From Methanomassiliicoccaceae archaeon (GTDB taxonomy: Archaea; Thermoplasmatota; Thermoplasmata; Methanomassiliicoccales; Methanomethylophilaceae), in NCBI GenBank assembly GCA_003560875.1, contig PWJQ01000057.1:1-64000 (forward strand): a stretch of DNA of 64,000 nt. Direction: 5' to 3'. A program made the position numbers and the translations under genes. The notes beneath the pieces were generated by a model. It was not told where the DNA came from and did no database searches. It saw only the letters and a program-made list of their open reading frames with translations. Below are positions 18,753-60,885 of the stretch, piece by piece; the stretch's first letter is position 1; every line of letters starts with the position of its first letter.

Positions 18753-20057
18753 ATGAAAACACTCGCTATAATAGGTGCCCAGTGGGGTGACGAGGGCAAA
18801 GGGAAGATAACCGACTACCTGGCCCGGGACGCCGACACCATCGTGCGTTTCCAGGGGGGGAACAATGCCGGTCACACCATTCAGATAGATGACGAGGTGT
18901 TCAAGCTTCATCTTCTTCCCTCCGGAATCCTTAGGGGGGGCAAGACTGCTGTGATAGGCAACGGTGTCGTCGTAGACGCCGAAGGCCTACTGGAGGAGAT
19001 GCGCATCGTCGAGGAGTCCGGCAGGAGCCTCGACGGACTCCGTATATCGGACCGCGCCCATATCATCCTCAACTATCATCGGAAACTCGATGGCGCCGAG
19101 GAACGCCATCGCGGCGATAAGAGCGTGGGCACCACCAAACGGGGGATAGGACCTTGCTACCAGGACAAGATAGCGAGGAGCGGTTTCCGGACCTGTGACC
19201 TCCTGGAGGAGGATACCCTGCGTGAGAAGGTCCCCTCCGTGCTCAGAATGAAGAAGGAGCTCCTGGAGATGATGGGAGACTCCTGCGAATGCACCGACGA
19301 TATGTTGGTCGAGAGACTCCTGGGCTGGGGCGAGACCCTGGGACGGTATGTCTGCGATTCCTCCGTTCTGGTGAACGAGTCCATCGACAAGGGCGAGAAG
19401 GTCCTTTTCGAAGGGGCCCAGGGCATCATGCTGGACATCGATCACGGCACCTATCCTTTCGTAACATCATCCAACACCATCGGCGGGGCCATATGCACCG
19501 GCGCCGGCGTAGGGCCCAACCGCGTTTCCACTGTGCTCGGTTGCCTCAAGGCCTACATCACCCGTGTCGGTGAGGGGCCCATGCCCACCGAACTCTGCGA
19601 CGACATTGGCGCGTACATAATGAAGAAGGGAGGGGAGTTCGGCACCACCACCGGCCGCGGGCGACGCTGTGGATGGCTGGACCTCGTCATCGCCAAACAT
19701 GCAGTCCGCATCGGCGGCATAACATCCTGGGCGGTCACAAAGCTGGACGTGCTCAACGGGATGGAGACTCTGAAGGTCTGCACGCACTATGAGGTGGACG
19801 GGGAGCGCATCGATTATTTCCCCGCCTCATTGAGTAAACTCTCACGCCTGGAACCGGTCTACGTCGAGCTTCCAGGTTGGGAGGACTGGGGAGACTTCTC
19901 CGAGGATATTGCGGCTGCCGGTTACGACGGTCTGCCCAAGGAGCTCAAGGACTACGTCTCATTCATAGAAAAGGAGACCGCCCGACCCGCGGACATGATC
20001 AGCATAGGCAAGCGCCGTTCGGAGACCATAGACCGGCGTGGCGAATGGTGGGCCTAG
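18753..20057 (+). CDS. purA: Adenylosuccinate synthetase
   Basis: IIGAQWGDEGKGKITDYLA, QGGNNAGHT, TTGRGRRCGWLD; ATG 18753. Confidence 0.96.
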   Translation: MKTLAIIGAQWGDEGKGKITDYLARDADTIVRFQGGNNAGHTIQIDDEVFKLHLLPSGILRGGKTAVIGNGVVVDAEGLLEEMRIVEESGRSLDGLRISDRAHIILNYHRKLDGAEERHRGDKSVGTTKRGIGPCYQDKIARSGFRTCDLLEEDTLREKVPSVLRMKKELLEMMGDSCECTDDMLVERLLGWGETLGRYVCDSSVLVNESIDKGEKVLFEGAQGIMLDIDHGTYPFVTSSNTIGGAICTGAGVGPNRVSTVLGCLKAYITRVGEGPMPTELCDDIGAYIMKKGGEFGTTTGRGRRCGWLDLVIAKHAVRIGGITSWAVTKLDVLNGMETLKVCTHYEVDGERIDYFPASLSKLSRLEPVYVELPGWEDWGDFSEDIAAAGYDGLPKELKDYVSFIEKETARPADMISIGKRRSETIDRRGEWWA

Positions 20058-21346
20058 TCCAGGGTCGCGCGGCGGAAGAGATGTTCCTTACCCAAGGGCA
20101 TCGTTGCATCCACTCCTACCTTGTAGGTGGTGCCCTCCGCACTGGGATCCAGTGAAGAACCGGCGGAATCGGGTATCACAAGAAGGCGGTCGCCCTGGAA
20201 ACGGGTGGCCATCGCCCACTCCACCTGACGGTCATCGAATATGTCGATATCCTGGTCGACGATAATCACGTGTTTCATGGACGGGTGACCGCTGAAGGCG
20301 GCCATGATAGCGTTCACGCCATCACCCTCCTTGTTCTTACTGATGGAGACCACGCCGTTGAGCCAGCAGCATCCCCCTTCGGTGAGACGGACGGCGTGGG
20401 TGCGGGGCACGGTCTGCCGGACGGTGCGGAATATCACCGGCTCCCGGGGCATGCCCATCAGTAGGAAGTGCTCGTTGCCACCTGGCTGCAGGAGATGGAA
20501 CACCGCGTCGTCGACATGCATCATGCGGTCTATCTTGATGATCGGTTGCTTGCGGACATGGTCGTAGGTGCCGGTGATGTCCACGAACGGCCCCTCATCG
20601 GCCTCATCCATTGTGAGGCGGCCCTCGAAGACGAAATCACAGCTGGCGGGGACCAGGAGACCGTTGCTCCCTCTGGCCAGAACCATCGGTTCACCCAGGG
20701 CGGAGAGCCTCAGGGCCGAGGCCACCTCCAGCTCATCGACCTCATAGTCCAGTGAGCTCGCGGCGGCCAATAATGCACAGGGACAGAGCCCGACGCATAT
20801 CGATATCTTGAGTTCCTTCCCCGCGTATTTAGCGGCCTTGTGCATGGTGAAGAGATGACGGGGCACCAGCCTCACCGCCAGGGCGTCCTTCCCTATCACC
20901 ATCATGCGGTGGAAGGACATGTTCCTCTTACCCTCGTACTCCGCGATTATGACGCCGGAGGTGATGTACCGACCGCCGTCCTCAGGATAATAACGGGGTA
21001 TCGGTAGTCTGGTTAGATCGAAATCATCGGTGACGTTGGCCTCCCATTCGCCCTTCTCCACCACCTCGAAGGGTTGAGGGTCGGACATGGCGGACATCAT
21101 GTGTCCCATGAGCTCGTCGCTACTGATGCCGAGGAACCTCGCCATCTTGTCGCGGGTGGAGAACAGGTTCCCCACGGCCTTCCCGCCGTTTAGGTCGTTG
21201 ATCATGACGGTTCGGTCCTGGTCCTCGAGGAGCAGAGCGCTGACCTCACAGGAGTCGGGGTCGACTACCTTGTCGACATCGTAGGTGTCCTCTTTCATAC
21301 GGGTAAGAAAGGCCCTGATTGCCATGGCTGATAATCCCGTTCCCAT
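20054..21346 (-). CDS. UbiD-family decarboxylase; candidate anhydromevalonate phosphate decarboxylase
   Basis: UbiD-like LPIPRYYPEDGGRYITSGVIIAEYEGKRNMSFHRMMVIGKDALAVRLVPRHL. Confidence 0.85.
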   Translation of the reverse strand: MGTGLSAMAIRAFLTRMKEDTYDVDKVVDPDSCEVSALLLEDQDRTVMINDLNGGKAVGNLFSTRDKMARFLGISSDELMGHMMSAMSDPQPFEVVEKGEWEANVTDDFDLTRLPIPRYYPEDGGRYITSGVIIAEYEGKRNMSFHRMMVIGKDALAVRLVPRHLFTMHKAAKYAGKELKISICVGLCPCALLAAASSLDYEVDELEVASALRLSALGEPMVLARGSNGLLVPASCDFVFEGRLTMDEADEGPFVDITGTYDHVRKQPIIKIDRMMHVDDAVFHLLQPGGNEHFLLMGMPREPVIFRTVRQTVPRTHAVRLTEGGCCWLNGVVSISKNKEGDGVNAIMAAFSGHPSMKHVIIVDQDIDIFDDRQVEWAMATRFQGDRLLVIPDSAGSSLDPSAEGTTYKVGVDATMPLGKEHLFRRATLD

Positions 21347-51554: not shown

Positions 51555-51605
51555 ATCGCCATGTGGGAGGGCAAGACAGTCCCTCCCAGGAAGGGACATG
51601 GCGAT
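51555..51605. promoter_or_regulatory. Long inverted repeat spanning probable TSS, SD and start codon of ileS
   Basis: ATCGCCATGTGGGAGGG (51555-51571) pairs with CCCTCCC (51581-51587) and ACATGGCGAT (51596-51605), leaving AGGAAGGG as a bulge. Confidence 0.7.
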
Positions 51606-54600
51606 GATAAAGCAGGTCCGACCGAATTATGAACCCCAGAAGATGGAGTCCGAGGTCCAACGCCATTGGGACTCGAAGGAGATTTACACCAAGACCAAGA
51701 AGTTGAGGGAGGACGGACCGGATTTCTATTTCCTCGACGGCCCCCCTTACACCACCGGCTCCATTCACCTCGGAACCGCCGTCAACAAAACCATCAAGGA
51801 CGTCCTGATCCGCTACTGGCGGATGAACGGTCTCAACGTCAGGGACCAACCCGGTTTCGACATGCACGGCCTGCCGATAGAGGTCCAGGTGGAGAAAGAG
51901 GTCGGTGTGAGGTCGAAGCAGGAGATCGAGGAGTACGGTATCGACCGCTTCGTCGACATCTGCAAGAAGTTCGCCTTGAAACTGCACGGAAGCATGAGCG
52001 ACCAGTTCAAACAACTCGGGGTGTGGATGGACTGGGATAACCCTTACCTCACAATCAAACCGGAATACATCGAGGCCGCCTGGTGGACCATCGAACGGGC
52101 CGATAAACGTGAGCTTCTGGTGTCCGATGACCGTGTCCTGTCATGGTGCCCGCGTTGCGAGACGGCCCTGGCGGAGGCGGAGATAGAGTACTGGGACGAG
52201 GAGGACCCATCGATATTCGTCAAGTTCCCACTCTCCGATGACCCCACGACCTCGGTGGTCATATGGACCACCACCCCTTGGACCCTCCCTGCCAACATGG
52301 CGGTGGCCGTCCATCCGGAGATGACATACGCCCTGGTGGACATGTCCGACAAAGGTAGGATGGAGAGACTCATCATCGCCGAGTCGCAGGTCGAGGCCGT
52401 CGCCGAACTGGCCGGTTTCGATGGTTTCGAAGTGATGAAGACATTCAACGGCAAGGACCTGGAGGGCAGATTCTACAACCCTCCGTTCAAGATAGACGAA
52501 CAACATATCAAACACAGCGAATGGACGCACCGCATCGTCCTCGCCGATTACGTGGAGGATGCCAACACCGGCATCGTGCACACCGCACCCGGGCATGGTC
52601 CTGACGACTTCGAGACCGGTAAGCGCTACGGGCTGCAGCCCTTCTGTCCGGTGGACGAGTCGGGAAGGTTCACCACGGCCGTTCCCGAATACCAGGGACG
52701 CAAGGCGCGGGGGACCAACCAGGACATACTCCAATACCTGGAGGACCGTGGGATCCTATTGCACAACCACGGCACCGAGCACCGTTACGGCCATTGCTGG
52801 AGGTGCCGTTCCTCGGTCATATTCCGCAACACCAATCAATGGTTCATTAAGGTCGACGACATAAAGGAGAAGATGGTGTCAGAGATCTCCAGGGTCAAAT
52901 GGACCCCTGACTGGGCCGGAAGCTCCCGTCAGCTCAACTGGGTGGAGGGGGCGCGTGACTGGTGCATATCCCGTCAAAGATACTGGGGAATCCCCATACC
53001 GATCTGGGAGTGCTCCTGTGGCGAGAGGAAGGTCATCGGGACCTTCGATGAGCTCTCAGAGGGACGCGGTTATATCGAAGGCATAGAGCCCCACCGTCCC
53101 TGGATAGACACCATCACCTTCCCCTGCACCCGTTGCAGCGGCGAGATGCACCGCGTCCAGGATGTACTTGACGTCTGGTTCGACTCCGGTGTGGCCGCAT
53201 GGGCCTGTCTGAAATATCCCACCGACAAGAAACAGTTCGACCGATGGTTCCCGGGACGGTTCATAACCGAGGCCCACGATCAGACCAGGGGATGGTTCTA
53301 CTCACAGCTGGCATCAGGTGTCATATCGTTCGACCGCAGCCCCTACGAAGAAGTGCTGATGCACGGTTGGATATTGGATTCCAAAGGGCAGAAGATGAGT
53401 AAGAGCAAAGGCAACGTCATAGAGCCCTTGGAAGTGATAAACGAGCATGGGGCGGACGCGCTAAGGTTGTACATGCTCAAAGCCAACGCCCCCTGGGAGG
53501 ACACCGCTTTCCAGAAGGAGGGCCCCCGCAACGCGCGGAAGACCCTGAACACACTATGGAACGTCATCAACTTCGCCTCCACCTACATGAGCCTCGACTC
53601 CTACGAGCCCTACAAACAGTCCATGGGCGACATGGAGGCCCATTTACGCAACGAGGACCGGTGGATGATCTCCCGCACCGAAAGGATGCGCAAGGAGGTC
53701 AGTGAGAACATCGAGTCCCGGAACCTGCACAAGGCGGCCCGGGTCATCGAGGACTACATCCTCGAGGACCTGTCACGCTGGTATGTGAGGTTGATCAGGG
53801 ACAGGATGTGGAATGAGGAGGGCGACCACGACAAGCAGGCCGCCTACTTCACACTGCACTATTCGATAATGAGTGCCACCAGACTCCTGGCACCGTTCTG
53901 TCCCCATATAACCGAGGAGATATACACCCATATGGACGGGCGTCTGGAGAGCGTCCACATGACCGATTGGCCGAGTTTCAATGAATCGCTTATCGACGAC
54001 AGCATGGAACTCAGCATGAGCATGGTCCAGGAGATAGTGGAGCTCAGCGCCTCCGAGAGGCAGCGCCGTGGTGTCAAGTTGCGCTGGCCGATGAAGAGGA
54101 TGGTCGTGAAGGGGAGCACGGAGTTGGTGAACAGTTCCATAGAACTCTTCAGCGATGTCCTGATGCAACAGGCCAATGTCAAGGAGGTGTCCTTCGTTGA
54201 GCCTGACAAGGAGTGGGACGCCCTCGTACTGCGTGTGATACCCAACCCCGATGCCATAGGGAAGGTCTACCGGCAATGGTCGTCGAAGATAGCCAAACTG
54301 CTGGAGAGCCGGCCTGCCGCCATGGTCAAGAGCGCGGTCAGCAAGGGCACCTACGAGATAGGCATCGAGGGACAGTACCTGAAGATCGAGCCCAACATGG
54401 TTACCTTCAGGCTGGACCTTCCCGAGAGTGTCTCCTCCGCAGAGTTCTCTTCCGGTACGATCTACCTGGACTTCGAGATGACGCCGGAGATAGAGGCCGA
54501 GGGTTACACCCGAGAGCTCATCAGGCGTATCCAACAGATGCGCAAGGACTTGAAACTGGACGTCGAGGAGTACATCAAGACCGATGTCTCCGCGGAACAG

Positions 54601-55446
54601 CGTCTCCGCGCCTACTTCAACCAATGGCGCAACCACATCATGAAGGAGACCCGTTCCCGGTCCATCTCATTCAGCGAGGAACCTGCGGAGGGCTCCAAGT
54701 CATGGGACATACAAGGCAAGGACGTGCACATAAGCATCAAGGCGGTGCAGTTGTCACAGGTCAGCCAGGCGTTCTCAGAATGGTCCTTCCTCAGCAATGA
54801 CGACGTCATCGCGCTCAATCAGGCGGGCCACTACGACAGGGAGGGCCTGGAGGCACTCACCGGTAAGCAGATACTCAGCATCCCCGGCATCCGTATCGCG
54901 GAGGCGATGAAGATCGTGGAGCATCTTAAGAAATCGGAGGGTGTCAGCGTGAAACCGGTGGACACCGAGATGAAGAAGGCCGTACCCGTGCAGGAACAGA
55001 ATATCGAGCCGGGCAACGTCTACATGGCAGTGAACAAGACTGAGAAGGGTCAGGCCCTACTGCACACGGCGATCATCAAGGGCATGAAACCCCTGCTGAT
55101 AACCAGGACCCCGCCGGAGAAACTGGCGATCAGCAAGGAGCTCAACGATGACAGCGTCATATGGCTTTCCAGCATCTCCAAACCCAACTCCTTCAACCCC
55201 CGTGAGCTATATCGTCTGGAACAGTTGATATCGCTCAGCCTGGAAAGGGGCAAGGCGGCCATACTGGTCGAGGGGCTTGAGTACCTGATAACCAACAACG
55301 ACTTCCTCTCGGTGCTGAGAATGGTCCAGAACCTCAGGGACCAGGCGTCGGAAAGGGACGGTGTGCTGGTGTTCGATGTAAACGGCAGGGCCTTGGACGC
55401 CCACGAGCTCAGTCTGCTGGAGAAGGAGTCCGACATCCTCCTCTGA
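51598..55446 (+). CDS. ileS: Isoleucyl-tRNA synthetase with C-terminal HhH-like and DUF835 domains
   Basis: DGPPYTTGSIHLGTA, GFDMHGLPIEV, MSKSKGNVI; C-terminus VYMAVNKTEKGQALLHTAIIKGMKPLLITRTPPEKLAI...VIWLSSI...AAILVEGLEYLITNNDFLSVLRMVQNLRDQA matches the DUF835 pattern. Confidence 0.93.
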   Translation: MAMIKQVRPNYEPQKMESEVQRHWDSKEIYTKTKKLREDGPDFYFLDGPPYTTGSIHLGTAVNKTIKDVLIRYWRMNGLNVRDQPGFDMHGLPIEVQVEKEVGVRSKQEIEEYGIDRFVDICKKFALKLHGSMSDQFKQLGVWMDWDNPYLTIKPEYIEAAWWTIERADKRELLVSDDRVLSWCPRCETALAEAEIEYWDEEDPSIFVKFPLSDDPTTSVVIWTTTPWTLPANMAVAVHPEMTYALVDMSDKGRMERLIIAESQVEAVAELAGFDGFEVMKTFNGKDLEGRFYNPPFKIDEQHIKHSEWTHRIVLADYVEDANTGIVHTAPGHGPDDFETGKRYGLQPFCPVDESGRFTTAVPEYQGRKARGTNQDILQYLEDRGILLHNHGTEHRYGHCWRCRSSVIFRNTNQWFIKVDDIKEKMVSEISRVKWTPDWAGSSRQLNWVEGARDWCISRQRYWGIPIPIWECSCGERKVIGTFDELSEGRGYIEGIEPHRPWIDTITFPCTRCSGEMHRVQDVLDVWFDSGVAAWACLKYPTDKKQFDRWFPGRFITEAHDQTRGWFYSQLASGVISFDRSPYEEVLMHGWILDSKGQKMSKSKGNVIEPLEVINEHGADALRLYMLKANAPWEDTAFQKEGPRNARKTLNTLWNVINFASTYMSLDSYEPYKQSMGDMEAHLRNEDRWMISRTERMRKEVSENIESRNLHKAARVIEDYILEDLSRWYVRLIRDRMWNEEGDHDKQAAYFTLHYSIMSATRLLAPFCPHITEEIYTHMDGRLESVHMTDWPSFNESLIDDSMELSMSMVQEIVELSASERQRRGVKLRWPMKRMVVKGSTELVNSSIELFSDVLMQQANVKEVSFVEPDKEWDALVLRVIPNPDAIGKVYRQWSSKIAKLLESRPAAMVKSAVSKGTYEIGIEGQYLKIEPNMVTFRLDLPESVSSAEFSSGTIYLDFEMTPEIEAEGYTRELIRRIQQMRKDLKLDVEEYIKTDVSAEQRLRAYFNQWRNHIMKETRSRSISFSEEPAEGSKSWDIQGKDVHISIKAVQLSQVSQAFSEWSFLSNDDVIALNQAGHYDREGLEALTGKQILSIPGIRIAEAMKIVEHLKKSEGVSVKPVDTEMKKAVPVQEQNIEPGNVYMAVNKTEKGQALLHTAIIKGMKPLLITRTPPEKLAISKELNDDSVIWLSSISKPNSFNPRELYRLEQLISLSLERGKAAILVEGLEYLITNNDFLSVLRMVQNLRDQASERDGVLVFDVNGRALDAHELSLLEKESDILL

Positions 55447-56208
55447 TCAGAGTCCGAGACGCACCAGGACCTCGTTGAGACGGGGGACGGTGTCCATACC
55501 GGCCGAATCGGCCGGGCTGACCCAGCGGTAGTCGCAATGCTCCCAGTTCAGAGTGGGTTCGTCATCGGCCTCGAAGAGCACCGGATGGACCTTCCAGATG
55601 ATGCCGTCCCCGCGTATCAGGAAGGATCTACCGATAAGGGTCGGCCGGGCATCGATCTGCGTCTCCTCCAGTAGTTCCCTGCTGGCGGCGTCCTCCGGTC
55701 CCTCCCCTGCCTCCATGAGTCCGGAGGCCCCTCCCCACATGCGCGGGAAGTGGCTCTCCTCATCACTGCGACGCAACAACAGGATGTCGTCACCGCGTCT
55801 CACTATGCCGCTGACCACCTCTCGGAGTTCAAGGTCAGGGAGTTCCAGTGTGCCGGAGTCACCATCGATGATGGCACGGTCTCCGCTACGGAGGGCGTCG
55901 ATATCGATCCCGTCCACCAGAGGTATGTCCGCGATGACGGCGCCGGTGGTCACTATCGTCTCGGCCGTGGCATTGATTATGCCGGCAGGGGCGAGGTTTT
56001 TTGTTTTGAGGTCGAAGATAGTGTAAGAACCGACGGTCGAGCCCTTGCCGCGACGGAAAGCGAACATCCTCCCGGAGATGTTGCCTTCTCCTACGCGCAA
56101 CTCGCCGGTAGCGGTGTCCACTCCGCCGAGGAAACTGAAATCCTCGTTCAGGACGAGGACCTCGGCTTCAGCCCTACCGCTGGCTATCGCACGGCCGTTG
56201 ATGATCAC
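55447..56208 (-). CDS. Aconitase-X small subunit (DUF126; phosphomevalonate dehydratase small subunit-like) fused to Nudix hydrolase
   Basis: N-terminal GRAIASGRAEAEVLVLNEDFSFLGGVD...GRMFAFRRGKGSTVGSYTIFDLKTKNLAPAGIINA; C-terminal Nudix box GLMEAGEGPEDAASRELLEETQI; GTG start overlaps the previous stop. Confidence 0.85.
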   Translation of the reverse strand: MIINGRAIASGRAEAEVLVLNEDFSFLGGVDTATGELRVGEGNISGRMFAFRRGKGSTVGSYTIFDLKTKNLAPAGIINATAETIVTTGAVIADIPLVDGIDIDALRSGDRAIIDGDSGTLELPDLELREVVSGIVRRGDDILLLRRSDEESHFPRMWGGASGLMEAGEGPEDAASRELLEETQIDARPTLIGRSFLIRGDGIIWKVHPVLFEADDEPTLNWEHCDYRWVSPADSAGMDTVPRLNEVLVRLGL

Positions 56209-57374
56209 ATCACCACCTCCATAAGGGTCTGGAATGAATCGCAGCGTACCTTCTGTGAACAGAGCGTAGGGAGATAGTTGCAGGCCTTGGCCGAATCGCT
56301 GGCGGAACTCTCGTACAGCCCTTCCACCGGAGTGACGACCATACAGGTGTCCGCAAGGACCGTCCCGAACCTCTCCAGGGTGGCGACCTCCTTCGGCAGT
56401 GCGTCACGGACCTGGCGAGAGGTGCAGAACCAGACCTTGACATCGGACTTCTTCACCTTGCCCTCCAGATAGTATGCCATCTCCCTCACCTCACGCATTG
56501 AAAGATGGGGACAGCCGAAGGCTATCAACTCGACATCCTCGACCACACTGAGCGACTCATGGGCATCCTTCAGTTCATCATCGCCGATATTAATGACTTC
56601 CAGTCCTTCGGTTGAATGCTCGGATGATTCAGGCGTATGGTCTTCCACATGGAACATCGCCACGGCGCCGGAAGCGGCCATCGCAGCCGCCATTATCTTC
56701 GCCTCCTCCCAATCCGGCCTTATGCCGCGGAAGTAGGGTATGCCGTTGCCGATGCGTGAGCCGACCGCCTGTCCGAGTAATGAATGCGAGAACAGACTGC
56801 CATCGATGTCCGCCTCCACGACCACGGTGGGTGAACGGTTCTCCTTCAGATGCAGTCCGTAATTCGCGGTGCGGCCCACGATGGCGGCCGCCAAGGCACC
56901 GGGCCCACCTTCGCGGTTGGTGCGAGCACCGACCATGGAGTTGACCATGGACAGGGCCGAGGACTCGGCCCAGGCGACATGGTCGCCTTTACGCGGCACG
57001 TTCCCAGCCAGATATGGTGTGCAGGAACAGCTGGTCTCCACTCCCATGCTGCCATAGAGATCGATGATATGCAACTGTTTGGCGGCGAACTCCTCGCTGA
57101 CGCCCATCTCTCGCCATCGGACACTGTCCATGCCGGAGGGGTTGAGTGTGCTGGGGACGCGGACCTTGGCCCCTTGCGAGACGTGCTCGAGGTAAACGAT
57201 TCCGCCGTCGCCGATGGTCTTGTAGGAGACGCCGGAGAGATGAGCGGATGTGATGGGGACGAGGTCCTCGGCACCGTATATCTTACCCAAGGCAACGACC
57301 AGTTCCAAGGCCTTACGGGCGCCTTCGCCCTCTTCACCGTCGAGTATCCGCTGCTCCGCAGCACTGAGATTCAT
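56205..57374 (-). CDS. Aconitase-X catalytic subunit (phosphomevalonate dehydratase large subunit-like)
   Basis: MNLSAAEQRILDGEEGEGARKALELVVALGKIYGAEDLVPITSAHLSGVSYKTIGDGG, SCSCTPYL, AWAESSALSMVNSMVGARTNREGGPGALAAAIVGRT. Confidence 0.9.
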   Translation of the reverse strand: MNLSAAEQRILDGEEGEGARKALELVVALGKIYGAEDLVPITSAHLSGVSYKTIGDGGIVYLEHVSQGAKVRVPSTLNPSGMDSVRWREMGVSEEFAAKQLHIIDLYGSMGVETSCSCTPYLAGNVPRKGDHVAWAESSALSMVNSMVGARTNREGGPGALAAAIVGRTANYGLHLKENRSPTVVVEADIDGSLFSHSLLGQAVGSRIGNGIPYFRGIRPDWEEAKIMAAAMAASGAVAMFHVEDHTPESSEHSTEGLEVINIGDDELKDAHESLSVVEDVELIAFGCPHLSMREVREMAYYLEGKVKKSDVKVWFCTSRQVRDALPKEVATLERFGTVLADTCMVVTPVEGLYESSASDSAKACNYLPTLCSQKVRCDSFQTLMEVVM

Positions 57375-57417: not shown

Positions 57418-60400
57418 TCAGAAAGGCACACGGATGTCCCACAACATCCCGTCATCGTTGTGGTGTTCGATCGTGCCCTTGAGCTGACGGGTCACCAATT
57501 GGTTTATGAGACGGGTCCCGAGAGAACAGGAACCACCGATCTTCGAGTCATCCTGTACGCCGCACCCATTGTCCTTGACCACCAAGTTCAAGTATCCATC
57601 CTCTTGGTGAATCGTTAGGTCGATCTTAGGATGTTCGATGTCTCCGAAAGCGTGCAGCATACAGTTTATCACCAACTCGTTGACGGCTAGTCCCAACGGT
57701 ATCGCATATGTATCGGTCAGCTCCAGGCCGTTATCGATTTCGAAATTGACCTCGGTTTCTATGTCGAACAGATCGACGATCTTATGAACCAGCTTTTGGA
57801 AGAAATTGGATGCTTTTATGCTATCCAACCTCTCAACGCGATATAGTTCCTCGTGTATCGTTGAGAGGACGAATATCCTTGTCTCGGCCTCCTGGAGAGT
57901 CTTGATGACCAAAGGGTCCTTGGAGCCCATGCTCTGCATCGCCAGAAGACTGTTCACCGTTGCCAGGTTGCTCTTCACCCTGTGGTGGACCTCTTGCAAC
58001 ATGAGTGTCTTCTCATCCAGGGAGTCTTCCATGAATTTATGTTCCTCCATCTTGGATGTGATGTCCTGAAAGAGAATTATGTAACCAGTGTTGTCCTCTG
58101 CACGATCCCCCTTGACGATCGGCGACAATTCCATGGACATCCACCGCATACCTGTATCGTTGACAATCATGTCCGTATGGGGTCCGATCTCGACCTCGCG
58201 TTGCAAATGGATATCCTGTGCCATTCTATCTTGTAAAGCGTCTGAGAAGAGATCGTAATCGAAGATCGATTTTCCCGCTCTGATATCCTCAGGTTCCGTT
58301 AGGATACCCTCCATTGCGGGGTTCATGTTTATCACCCTTCCATCGACATCGGTGAACGCGGTGGGGATAGGAGTCTGTTCGAACAAACCCTGGAATCGTA
58401 TCTCACTATGTTTGAGACGGCTTATGTCAACGTAGGAAAGGACCGCGCCGGCAATCTGATTGGCATCGTCATAATATGGTAAGACCTTCTCAAGGTAATG
58501 GCTGCCTGAGTTGGTTTTGACCTCTCTCTCGCGGTTTTCGCCTGATTCCATTACCTCCATGATCCGTTCCATGAATTGGTCATCGGCCAGGTTGTACGTT
58601 ATATGGTTCACAGGACGTCCGATGTCCGTCTCTATTATGTTGAAGAGTTTCCTGACCTGAGGGGTGAATTTCCTTATATTCATGTCCTTACTGATGAATA
58701 TCAGGCCCACCTCCGTTGCCCTCATCATGTTGTTAAGGTCGTTGGTAAGGCTGGTGAGGGTCTTGATCCTTTCGTTGTTCTCGGTGTTCAAGGAGTACAA
58801 CTCCTCGTTCATGGAGTTCAATTCCTCATTCAAGGAGTTGAGTTCCTCGTTAGTGCTCTGCATCTCCTCGTTGGCGCTGAGTAGCTCCTCGTTACGGGCC
58901 TCGGACTCCTCCACGGTCTTCTGGAGCATCTCCTTGGATTCCTGCAGCTCCGCCTCCAACTGTATCATCCTGTCGTTCGCCCCTTCACTCAGCTCAGAGG
59001 TTCTAGTGGGAGGTGCCGTCCGGTCCTCATTGGTCTCGATCTTTATGAAATAATAATGATCCGCGGATTGTCTGGCGAGGGGAATGACGGTGATGTCGAG
59101 AAGATCATACTCGTTTATAGTGGATTTCACTCCTCTGAACATCATCCTTTTCCCTTCTTTCTTGGATTGAGATATCCCTGCTTTCATCGCAATGATGAGG
59201 TCCCCATCAACCATTGATGAAAGGTCATTACTAACTCTCCCGCTCCTCTGATGAAGAAAATCACCCGCCTTACCGAAAAGGTGGATCACCTGAAGCTCAC
59301 TGTTCACAAGTATGCCTCGCGGTATGAAGGAGGAAAGTAGCATGTCATATGCTTCCATGAGATCCTTATCAGACCTGGTTTTTGTCTCCACTATCCCGAC
59401 CTCTTTCTCACTGGAGAGAAGGGACGGGATCATATGGGACATCACAGATTTTGGGATCTTGATCATCTCCTTGGGCCTCTGGTATATCCTCCATTTATTG
59501 TCCAACTCTTGGAACTCCTTACCGATGGCTCCAGCAGTCTCGGACGCACCAAGGATCAGGTTCCCTCCGGGTTTGAGTGAGAACATGAACGATGCCAGTA
59601 CTCTCTGCTGTACATTGGCCTTGAGATAGATGAACAGGTTCCTACAGGAGATGAGGTCTATGTTGGTGAAGGGAGGATTGCTTATGACATCATGTCTCAA
59701 GAACACGACTGACTGTCTCACGCGGGGAATGACCTGAAAAATCTTTTCATCCATTTTGATGAAGTATTTCCGCAATATATCCTCCTCGATCCCCTCGACA
59801 TTGGAGTACATCCCGTTGGATGCGATTTCCAGGGAACGCTTGTGGATGTCTGAGGCGAATATCTTGAGGTTGGGTTGAATGCCGGTCTGATTGAAGGCCT
59901 CATGGAAGAGTATGGCTATAGTGTAAGCCTCCTCACCCGTTGCGCAGGCTGGCACCCATACCCTTATGTCATCCCCATCGGACTTGTTCGATACCAAGGG
60001 GATTATGGTATTCTCATAGAGCGTCTTGAAAGCATCCGGATCGCGGAAGAATGCAGTCACTCCTATGAGGATATCATGGAATAGGGCGTCCAGCTCCACC
60101 GGGTCCATCGACAGCCGGTCGAGATAATTCCGATAGTTATCGATTTCCAGGATGTTTAGGCGTCTTTGTATCCTACGTTTGATCGTGGGTTGCTTGTAAA
60201 GAGAGAAATCGATGTTGGATTCCTTGCGGAGTAGAAGAATGATGTCTTGATAAGGTATCTCTTTATCAGACTCCGAATCCAAGACCTCTTGTGATGGAGT
60301 ATTGATGAAACGGGTGATCTCATCGGCGATCTCAAGGGGGTCCAAAACGAAATCCACAAACCCGGTGGATATTGCCTCGAGAGGCATGCTATCAAACTTG

Positions 60401-60885
60401 GCGGATCGAGGGGACTGGGCCAACACCATACCTCCCAGATCACTGACCCTTTGTATGCCTTTTGAACCATCACCACCTGTTCCGGAAAGGACAATGGCCA
60501 TGCAGTTTGCTTTCATATCAGCTCCCATGGAGTTGAAGAAGGTGTTGATGGGCATGTTGATGACGGCTTCCCTATTATGGGCAAATAGGGTTCCGCCGCT
60601 CAATACCATTTCCTTACCGGGTTGGAGAAGATATATGGTATTAGGATTGATGACGATACTGTCCTTAACGGTCTCAATGACCATACCCGTGGACTTTTGG
60701 AGGATATCCGCCATATGACTATCGAAATCGGGAGAAAGGTGCTGTATCACCACGAAAGAGGCCCCGGTGTCATCAGGTATCGATGAGAATAGGGATTGTA
60801 TGGCTTCCAACCCCCCTGCTGATGCCCCGATACCAATAACTTTTCGAACACCCTTTGAAAGAGAATCGTTATTGATAGAGGACAT
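57418..60885 (-). CDS. CheB-CheR-PAS-histidine kinase fusion protein
   Basis: CheB: GIGASAGGLEAI, VVIQHLSPDF, SGTGGDGSKGI; CheR: ACATGEEAYTIAIL, ISCRNLFIYL; coiled coil NEELNSLNEELNSMNEELYSLN; HisKA_2-type HHRVKSNLATVNSLLAMQ and ATPase. Confidence 0.93.
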   Translation of the reverse strand: MSSINNDSLSKGVRKVIGIGASAGGLEAIQSLFSSIPDDTGASFVVIQHLSPDFDSHMADILQKSTGMVIETVKDSIVINPNTIYLLQPGKEMVLSGGTLFAHNREAVINMPINTFFNSMGADMKANCMAIVLSGTGGDGSKGIQRVSDLGGMVLAQSPRSAKFDSMPLEAISTGFVDFVLDPLEIADEITRFINTPSQEVLDSESDKEIPYQDIILLLRKESNIDFSLYKQPTIKRRIQRRLNILEIDNYRNYLDRLSMDPVELDALFHDILIGVTAFFRDPDAFKTLYENTIIPLVSNKSDGDDIRVWVPACATGEEAYTIAILFHEAFNQTGIQPNLKIFASDIHKRSLEIASNGMYSNVEGIEEDILRKYFIKMDEKIFQVIPRVRQSVVFLRHDVISNPPFTNIDLISCRNLFIYLKANVQQRVLASFMFSLKPGGNLILGASETAGAIGKEFQELDNKWRIYQRPKEMIKIPKSVMSHMIPSLLSSEKEVGIVETKTRSDKDLMEAYDMLLSSFIPRGILVNSELQVIHLFGKAGDFLHQRSGRVSNDLSSMVDGDLIIAMKAGISQSKKEGKRMMFRGVKSTINEYDLLDITVIPLARQSADHYYFIKIETNEDRTAPPTRTSELSEGANDRMIQLEAELQESKEMLQKTVEESEARNEELLSANEEMQSTNEELNSLNEELNSMNEELYSLNTENNERIKTLTSLTNDLNNMMRATEVGLIFISKDMNIRKFTPQVRKLFNIIETDIGRPVNHITYNLADDQFMERIMEVMESGENREREVKTNSGSHYLEKVLPYYDDANQIAGAVLSYVDISRLKHSEIRFQGLFEQTPIPTAFTDVDGRVINMNPAMEGILTEPEDIRAGKSIFDYDLFSDALQDRMAQDIHLQREVEIGPHTDMIVNDTGMRWMSMELSPIVKGDRAEDNTGYIILFQDITSKMEEHKFMEDSLDEKTLMLQEVHHRVKSNLATVNSLLAMQSMGSKDPLVIKTLQEAETRIFVLSTIHEELYRVERLDSIKASNFFQKLVHKIVDLFDIETEVNFEIDNGLELTDTYAIPLGLAVNELVINCMLHAFGDIEHPKIDLTIHQEDGYLNLVVKDNGCGVQDDSKIGGSCSLGTRLINQLVTRQLKGTIEHHNDDGMLWDIRVPF

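Follow-up and report, generated by a model that had tools for sequence, protein, structure and literature searches.

A conserved fusion of a predicted phosphomevalonate dehydratase small subunit to a Nudix domain in Thermoplasmata

The stretch of archaeal DNA analysed here (64,000 nucleotides, henceforth the window) carries on its minus strand a gene for a 253-residue protein, in which an aconitase X (AcnX) swivel domain, predicted to be the small subunit of phosphomevalonate dehydratase (PMDh), is joined to a Nudix domain. PMDh is the hallmark enzyme of the modified mevalonate pathway, by which most archaea make their membrane lipids, and to our knowledge little has been learned about the ties of this pathway to other metabolism. 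The features discussed below are:

55447..56208, minus strand: fusion gene, predicted AcnX swivel (PMDh small subunit) plus Nudix; 253 aa, GTG start
55840..56208, minus strand: swivel (DUF126) half, residues 1-123 (Pfam core 24-98); PF01989, match to the TkAcnX small subunit
56032..56043, minus strand: G-S-T-V, residues 56-59, equivalent of the TkAcnX Ser62/Thr63/Val64 catalytic loop in the alignment of 56 fusions
55456..55833, minus strand: Nudix half, residues 126-251; profile A2 E 2.4e-45, PF00293
55654..55722, minus strand: Nudix box, residues 163-185, GLMEAGEGPEDAASRELLEETQI, read from the translation
56205..57374, minus strand: predicted AcnX large subunit of PMDh, 389 aa; PF04412, 7cnr_A E 1.9e-99
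20054..21346, minus strand: UbiD-family decarboxylase; TIGR00148 E 7.8e-105, PF01977/PF20696

Scanning the protein against Pfam gives two matches over the curated cut-offs, AcnX_swivel at residues 24-98 (E 3.5e-22, 78.5 bits against a cut-off of 27) and NUDIX at residues 129-235 (E 1.3e-15, 58 bits). Together with the fold matches they bear out the architecture proposed in a preliminary description of this DNA, namely an N-terminal DUF126 swivel followed by a C-terminal Nudix domain. The reading frame lies directly downstream of the large-subunit gene (Pfam AcnX, E 1.7e-141), and the 4-nt overlap between the two that had been described there is confirmed. An AlphaFold2 model built with 56 fusion homologues as input is confident throughout (mean pLDDT 95, pTM 0.83), and consists of two folded domains with a very short linker between swivel and Nudix.

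In the fold search the swivel half matches the small subunit of Thermococcus kodakarensis AcnX (TkAcnX; 7cnr_B) with 50% identity and an rmsd of 1.6 Å. The functional residues of that subunit, Ser62/Thr63/Val64 and Leu27 (PMC8184944), have their equivalents in S57, T58, V59 and L27 of the fusion; S57 and V59 are kept in 56/56 fusions and T58 in 55/56, and the set of four, L27 included, in 55-56 of the 56. As read from the alignment, the large subunit has G48-V49-S50, E137-S138-S139, K363 and Y367 in place, together with three candidate cluster cysteines (C118, C288 and C344), and the single change relative to the TkAcnX residues is from Asn53 to Thr. The assignment to PMDh made earlier is thus upheld by sequence, fold, catalytic residues and the large subunit, and on these comparisons it is well supported that the swivel half is the small subunit of an AcnX type II PMDh. 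It would close over the [4Fe-4S] large subunit encoded by the upstream gene and, judging from the conserved residues, would provide the catalytic serine loop for the conversion of mevalonate 5-phosphate to trans-anhydromevalonate phosphate. Though the T. kodakarensis enzyme (PDB IDs: 7CNR; 7CNS) shares the Ser-Thr-Val loop and Leu27 with the swivel half, its small subunit TK1248 stops after the swivel (134 aa), whereas the fusion has 130 further residues, the Nudix. The same genome also encodes a second, diverged AcnX large-subunit homologue (G000:C15:15962-16888, minus strand; 360-aa frame, 145 bits total).

The fusion is not peculiar to this assembly. A search for further DUF126-Nudix fusions, suggested in the preliminary description, found them widely: a homologue turns up in 60 of 61 relatives, in nearly every case aligned over both halves and without internal stops, and among 300 sampled Thermoplasmata genomes there are full-length fusions in about 20 family-level groups, counts taken from collections with one genome per species and many incomplete MAGs, where absences are soft. 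The exact 4-nt overlap with the large-subunit gene recurs in 52 of the 60 fusion loci examined, and close pairs within the genus show purifying selection on both halves (window versus locus L004: swivel dN 0.079, dS 0.65; Nudix dN 0.112, dS 0.84). Since nearly all of these 60 homologues are full-length fusions without internal stops, the joined frame is due neither to chance nor to misassembly; a frameshift, stop loss or misassembly merging two adjacent genes has next to no probability given the same junction in dozens of independent assemblies, which also removes the possibility, raised at the outset, of a fusion unique to one assembly, and we found no observation in support of such an artefact. 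We conclude that the fusion is genuine, of long standing and broadly conserved in this archaeal class, the Methanomassiliicoccales methanogens included. It also seems so far undescribed, as judged from the open-licence literature on aconitase X, UPF0107 or Methanomassiliicoccales with Nudix, where we found no description of it.

The Nudix box reads G163-LMEAG-E169-GPEDAAS-R177-E178-L179-L-E181-E182-T-Q-I, so that the earlier characterisation of it as canonical holds for the Gx5Ex7REUxEExGU pattern except at the final G, which is replaced by Q. Among 56 fusions E182 is invariant, E178 and E181 are each kept in 55, and the position of R177 is R or K in 54; R199, G163, E166 and E223 are also invariant. 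Conservation of these catalytic residues, with the purifying selection, makes the Nudix half look catalytically competent. One clade of 18 rows in the Nudix tree (L043, L017 and relatives, within the window's family) keeps the catalytic box and has shifted motifs elsewhere, VSG to AGK and WEH to KEN, which may reflect a changed substrate.

The best solved relatives by PDB profile are Methanosarcina mazei MutT, NudI and CTP pyrophosphohydrolase, and the fold search likewise returns MutT/NudI/RppH-type enzymes. The nearest structures, the M. mazei MutT-related protein (PDB ID: 3GRN), NudI and BdRppH, have the fold and box in common with the Nudix half, but they are single-domain proteins, identity to the NTP pyrophosphohydrolases is only 20-26% with all NCBIfam equivalogs below cut-off, and WAGVSG, R199, HPFLF, WEH and TVPKL are motifs that set the archaeal Nudix family apart from them. 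Ap4A hydrolase and MTH1 also rank ahead of the plant enzymes AtNudx1 and rose NUDX1; the plant Nudx1-type match (E 3.5e-6) covers only profile positions 7-73 and stands behind many others, and rose NUDX1 has rank 32 by fold. AtNudx1/AtNudx3 and rose NUDX1 thus share the Nudix superfamily and an isoprenoid link with the fusion, but they match weakly and partially, belong to another subfamily and have no PMDh fusion. HVO_1934 offers a second case of an archaeal Nudix joined to a domain that resembles a metabolic enzyme, there an eIF2B/ribose-1,5-bisphosphate isomerase-like domain and not AcnX; its Nudix motifs may resemble those of the fusion. This Haloferax volcanii protein is described as a 'NUDIX family hydrolase/eIF-2B domain protein' (PMC8576121).

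Across the remainder of the phylum DUF126 mostly has a free gene of about 130 aa, and it is common there to find, as a gene of its own, a Nudix that shared motifs place in the same subfamily. Family f54 (genomes G348 and G353) has DUF126, a 297-aa gene without a Pfam family and the Nudix on one strand and unfused, with the AcnX large subunit upstream of DUF126 in G353 and the genes overlapping or separated by small gaps; this arrangement of the PMDh operon is apparently the state before fusion. The Nudix would have joined the PMDh operon as a separate neighbouring gene and become fused later, with the probable consequence that it is produced 1:1 with PMDh. Elsewhere the free Nudix adjoins purQ (f46), a gene for a PIN/KH ATPase (f35, f58, f65) or a radical-SAM gene (f43, f50), and in a few loci GGGP synthase, UbiA prenyltransferase or an FAD oxidoreductase lies within a few kb. 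A single fusion event is not rejected by the Nudix tree (p-AU 0.32), though the alignment of 134 columns is too short for proof. The searches covered the genomes of the phylum and, beyond it, consisted of one low-sensitivity scan; plasmids, searched for free relatives, returned ordinary Nudix proteins only.

Separation after fusion can be seen as well. For instance, genome G097 has one copy with an intact swivel and a degenerate Nudix box (L072, 5950-6738, minus strand), while in the other (L071, 3507-4247, plus strand) it is the Nudix that is intact and the swivel that is eroded; as read from the two sequences, the pair is the product of complementary decay after duplication. A free DUF126 accompanies an eroded-swivel Nudix in G137 and G143. 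In G068, G125 and G089 there is no PF01989 match and no AcnX over the cut-off, the Nudix is kept on an eroded swivel, and a gene of the mevalonate-diphosphate-decarboxylase family (TIGR01240) is present; PMDh loss with survival of the Nudix on an eroded swivel is found in two genera within the class. Outside the class, G318 and G337 have the Nudix and TIGR01240 without PMDh, and a haloarchaea-type phosphomevalonate decarboxylase has been reported in Thermoplasmatota (PMC11052028). The eroded-swivel proteins most likely descend from the fusion, because aligning their profile with the fusions (columns 92-257, E 1e-57) pairs not only the Nudix domains but also the linker and the last part of the swivel; the Nudix tree places those of the f14 lineage inside a group of fusions (support 99/84). 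A fold search with the eroded-swivel model gave only Nudix-containing matches in the top 50, and the swivel ancestry is therefore argued from this alignment and from the order of the secondary-structure elements.

The Nudix is free in sister lineages, fused here and persistent after PMDh loss, from which it follows that PMDh catalysis does not include the Nudix reaction as one of its steps. With the unfused operon on one side and the later separations on the other, a natural series surrounds this long-lived fusion, and it offers a way to ask about the role of the Nudix half and about any need for it to stay with the dehydratase.

The reading we tentatively prefer, at somewhat short of an even chance, is that the protein is bifunctional, a PMDh small subunit with an independent house-cleaning Nudix of nucleotide type. 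The Nudix half would be a competent pyrophosphohydrolase with a task of its own, most likely acting on a soluble compound of the nucleoside di- or triphosphate type. This is favoured because the Nudix survives the loss of PMDh and because its best solved relatives are MutT, NudI and CTP pyrophosphohydrolase. House-cleaning had been among the roles first suggested for it, and is the best fit given nearest relatives of the MutT/NudI/RppH type; the part of that suggestion which named pathway diphosphates as the substrate is unproven. The weak points of a nucleotide substrate, proposed as it is from sequence comparison, are that membership of a Nudix family is a poor predictor of substrate and that 20-26% identity is weak.

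Possible, by analogy, but held with distinctly less confidence, is that the Nudix half cuts an isoprenoid diphosphate (IPP/DMAPP or GPP/GGPP) down to its monophosphate and so works against IPK, holding back flux from within the committed dehydratase of the pathway. The Nudix shares a chain or an operon with a pathway enzyme, and two-subunit AcnX is found in 105 of the 114 genomes that have the Nudix at a threshold of E <= 1e-20 (Fisher p 5e-36, a test that ignores phylogeny), so that its tracking of AcnX across the phylum may point to a role specific to the pathway. Lipid genes are found within a few kb of some free copies. The immediate neighbours of free copies are purQ or the PIN/KH ATPase gene, not IPK or IDI. 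AtNudx1 and AtNudx3 dephosphorylate IPP and DMAPP (PMC6779861). It was from the conversion of IPP to IP by plant Nudix enzymes that a balancing of the IP/IPP pool had first been put forward for the fusion; IPK is indeed present in every Nudix genome checked, those that keep the Nudix after PMDh loss included, but the parallel is one of analogy only, AtNudx1 and rose NUDX1 being weak matches and not the nearest relatives. Many genomes with IPK are without this Nudix (f18, f22, f41, f47, f55), and conversion of IPP to IP would form a futile cycle with IPK. We rejected the presence of IPK as a discriminator between the readings, as all 28 genomes tested have it (28/28), the Nudix-less among them included. 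Should the Nudix prove to use isoprenoid diphosphates, archaea would have their first described control point of this kind, to judge from the open-licence literature. A built-in flux valve, in which the dehydratase subunit's own phosphohydrolase for IPP/DMAPP (or a prenyl diphosphate) sets the IP:IPP ratio, is rather unlikely; if true, archaea of this class would set the ratio within the committed enzyme of the modified mevalonate pathway, an arrangement without a described counterpart.

More doubtful is a sensory or structural role for the Nudix half, in which a diphosphate metabolite bound there sets dehydratase activity allosterically, or the domain simply stabilises the subunit. The very short linker and the confident two-domain model would suit such a role, ligand sensing is known for some Nudix domains (the fold matches to the second model, that of an eroded-swivel protein, include NrtR with ADP-ribose), and one clade of the window's family, described above, has shifted motifs outside the box. 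However, free-standing copies keep the catalytic glutamates, as do 55-56 of the 56 fusions, and the Nudix persists where PMDh has been lost.

The modified mevalonate pathway is, by gene content, complete in this genome. The UbiD-family gene at 20054-21346 (minus strand) is the only UbiD found there and is the probable anhydromevalonate phosphate decarboxylase, while IPK and type-2 IPP isomerase, which had been proposed as genes to look for, are both present and adjacent on another contig (C3:918-1673 and 1701-2705); each is over the cut-off in 20 of 21 relatives. With all three enzymes encoded no replacement isomerase is needed, and it is very improbable that the Nudix half supplies DMAPP as an IPP isomerase-like enzyme: type-1 IDI is itself a Nudix-fold enzyme, but the type-2 enzyme directly adjoins IPK here, and IDI1 is absent from the 60 best PDB profile matches and the 50 best fold matches. 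The isomerase-like role suggested earlier is therefore not called for.

Several other arrangements were seen in the course of the work. In family f35 a free DUF126 directly adjoins IPK on the same strand (G319:C2:31818-32947, G346:C39:14182-15302). PF01989 lies within frames of about 580-630 aa in several f55 and f36 genomes, which suggests a single-chain AcnX, and f47, f55 and f36 are nearly all without the specialised Nudix. Within the window, a CheB-CheR-PAS-PAS-histidine kinase (57418-60885, minus strand, 1155 aa) lies directly upstream of the AcnX genes, and the isoleucyl-tRNA synthetase at 51598-55446 (plus strand, 1282 aa) has DUF5915 followed by a C-terminal DUF835 (residues 1146-1277, E 4.8e-28), a fusion unusual for a synthetase.
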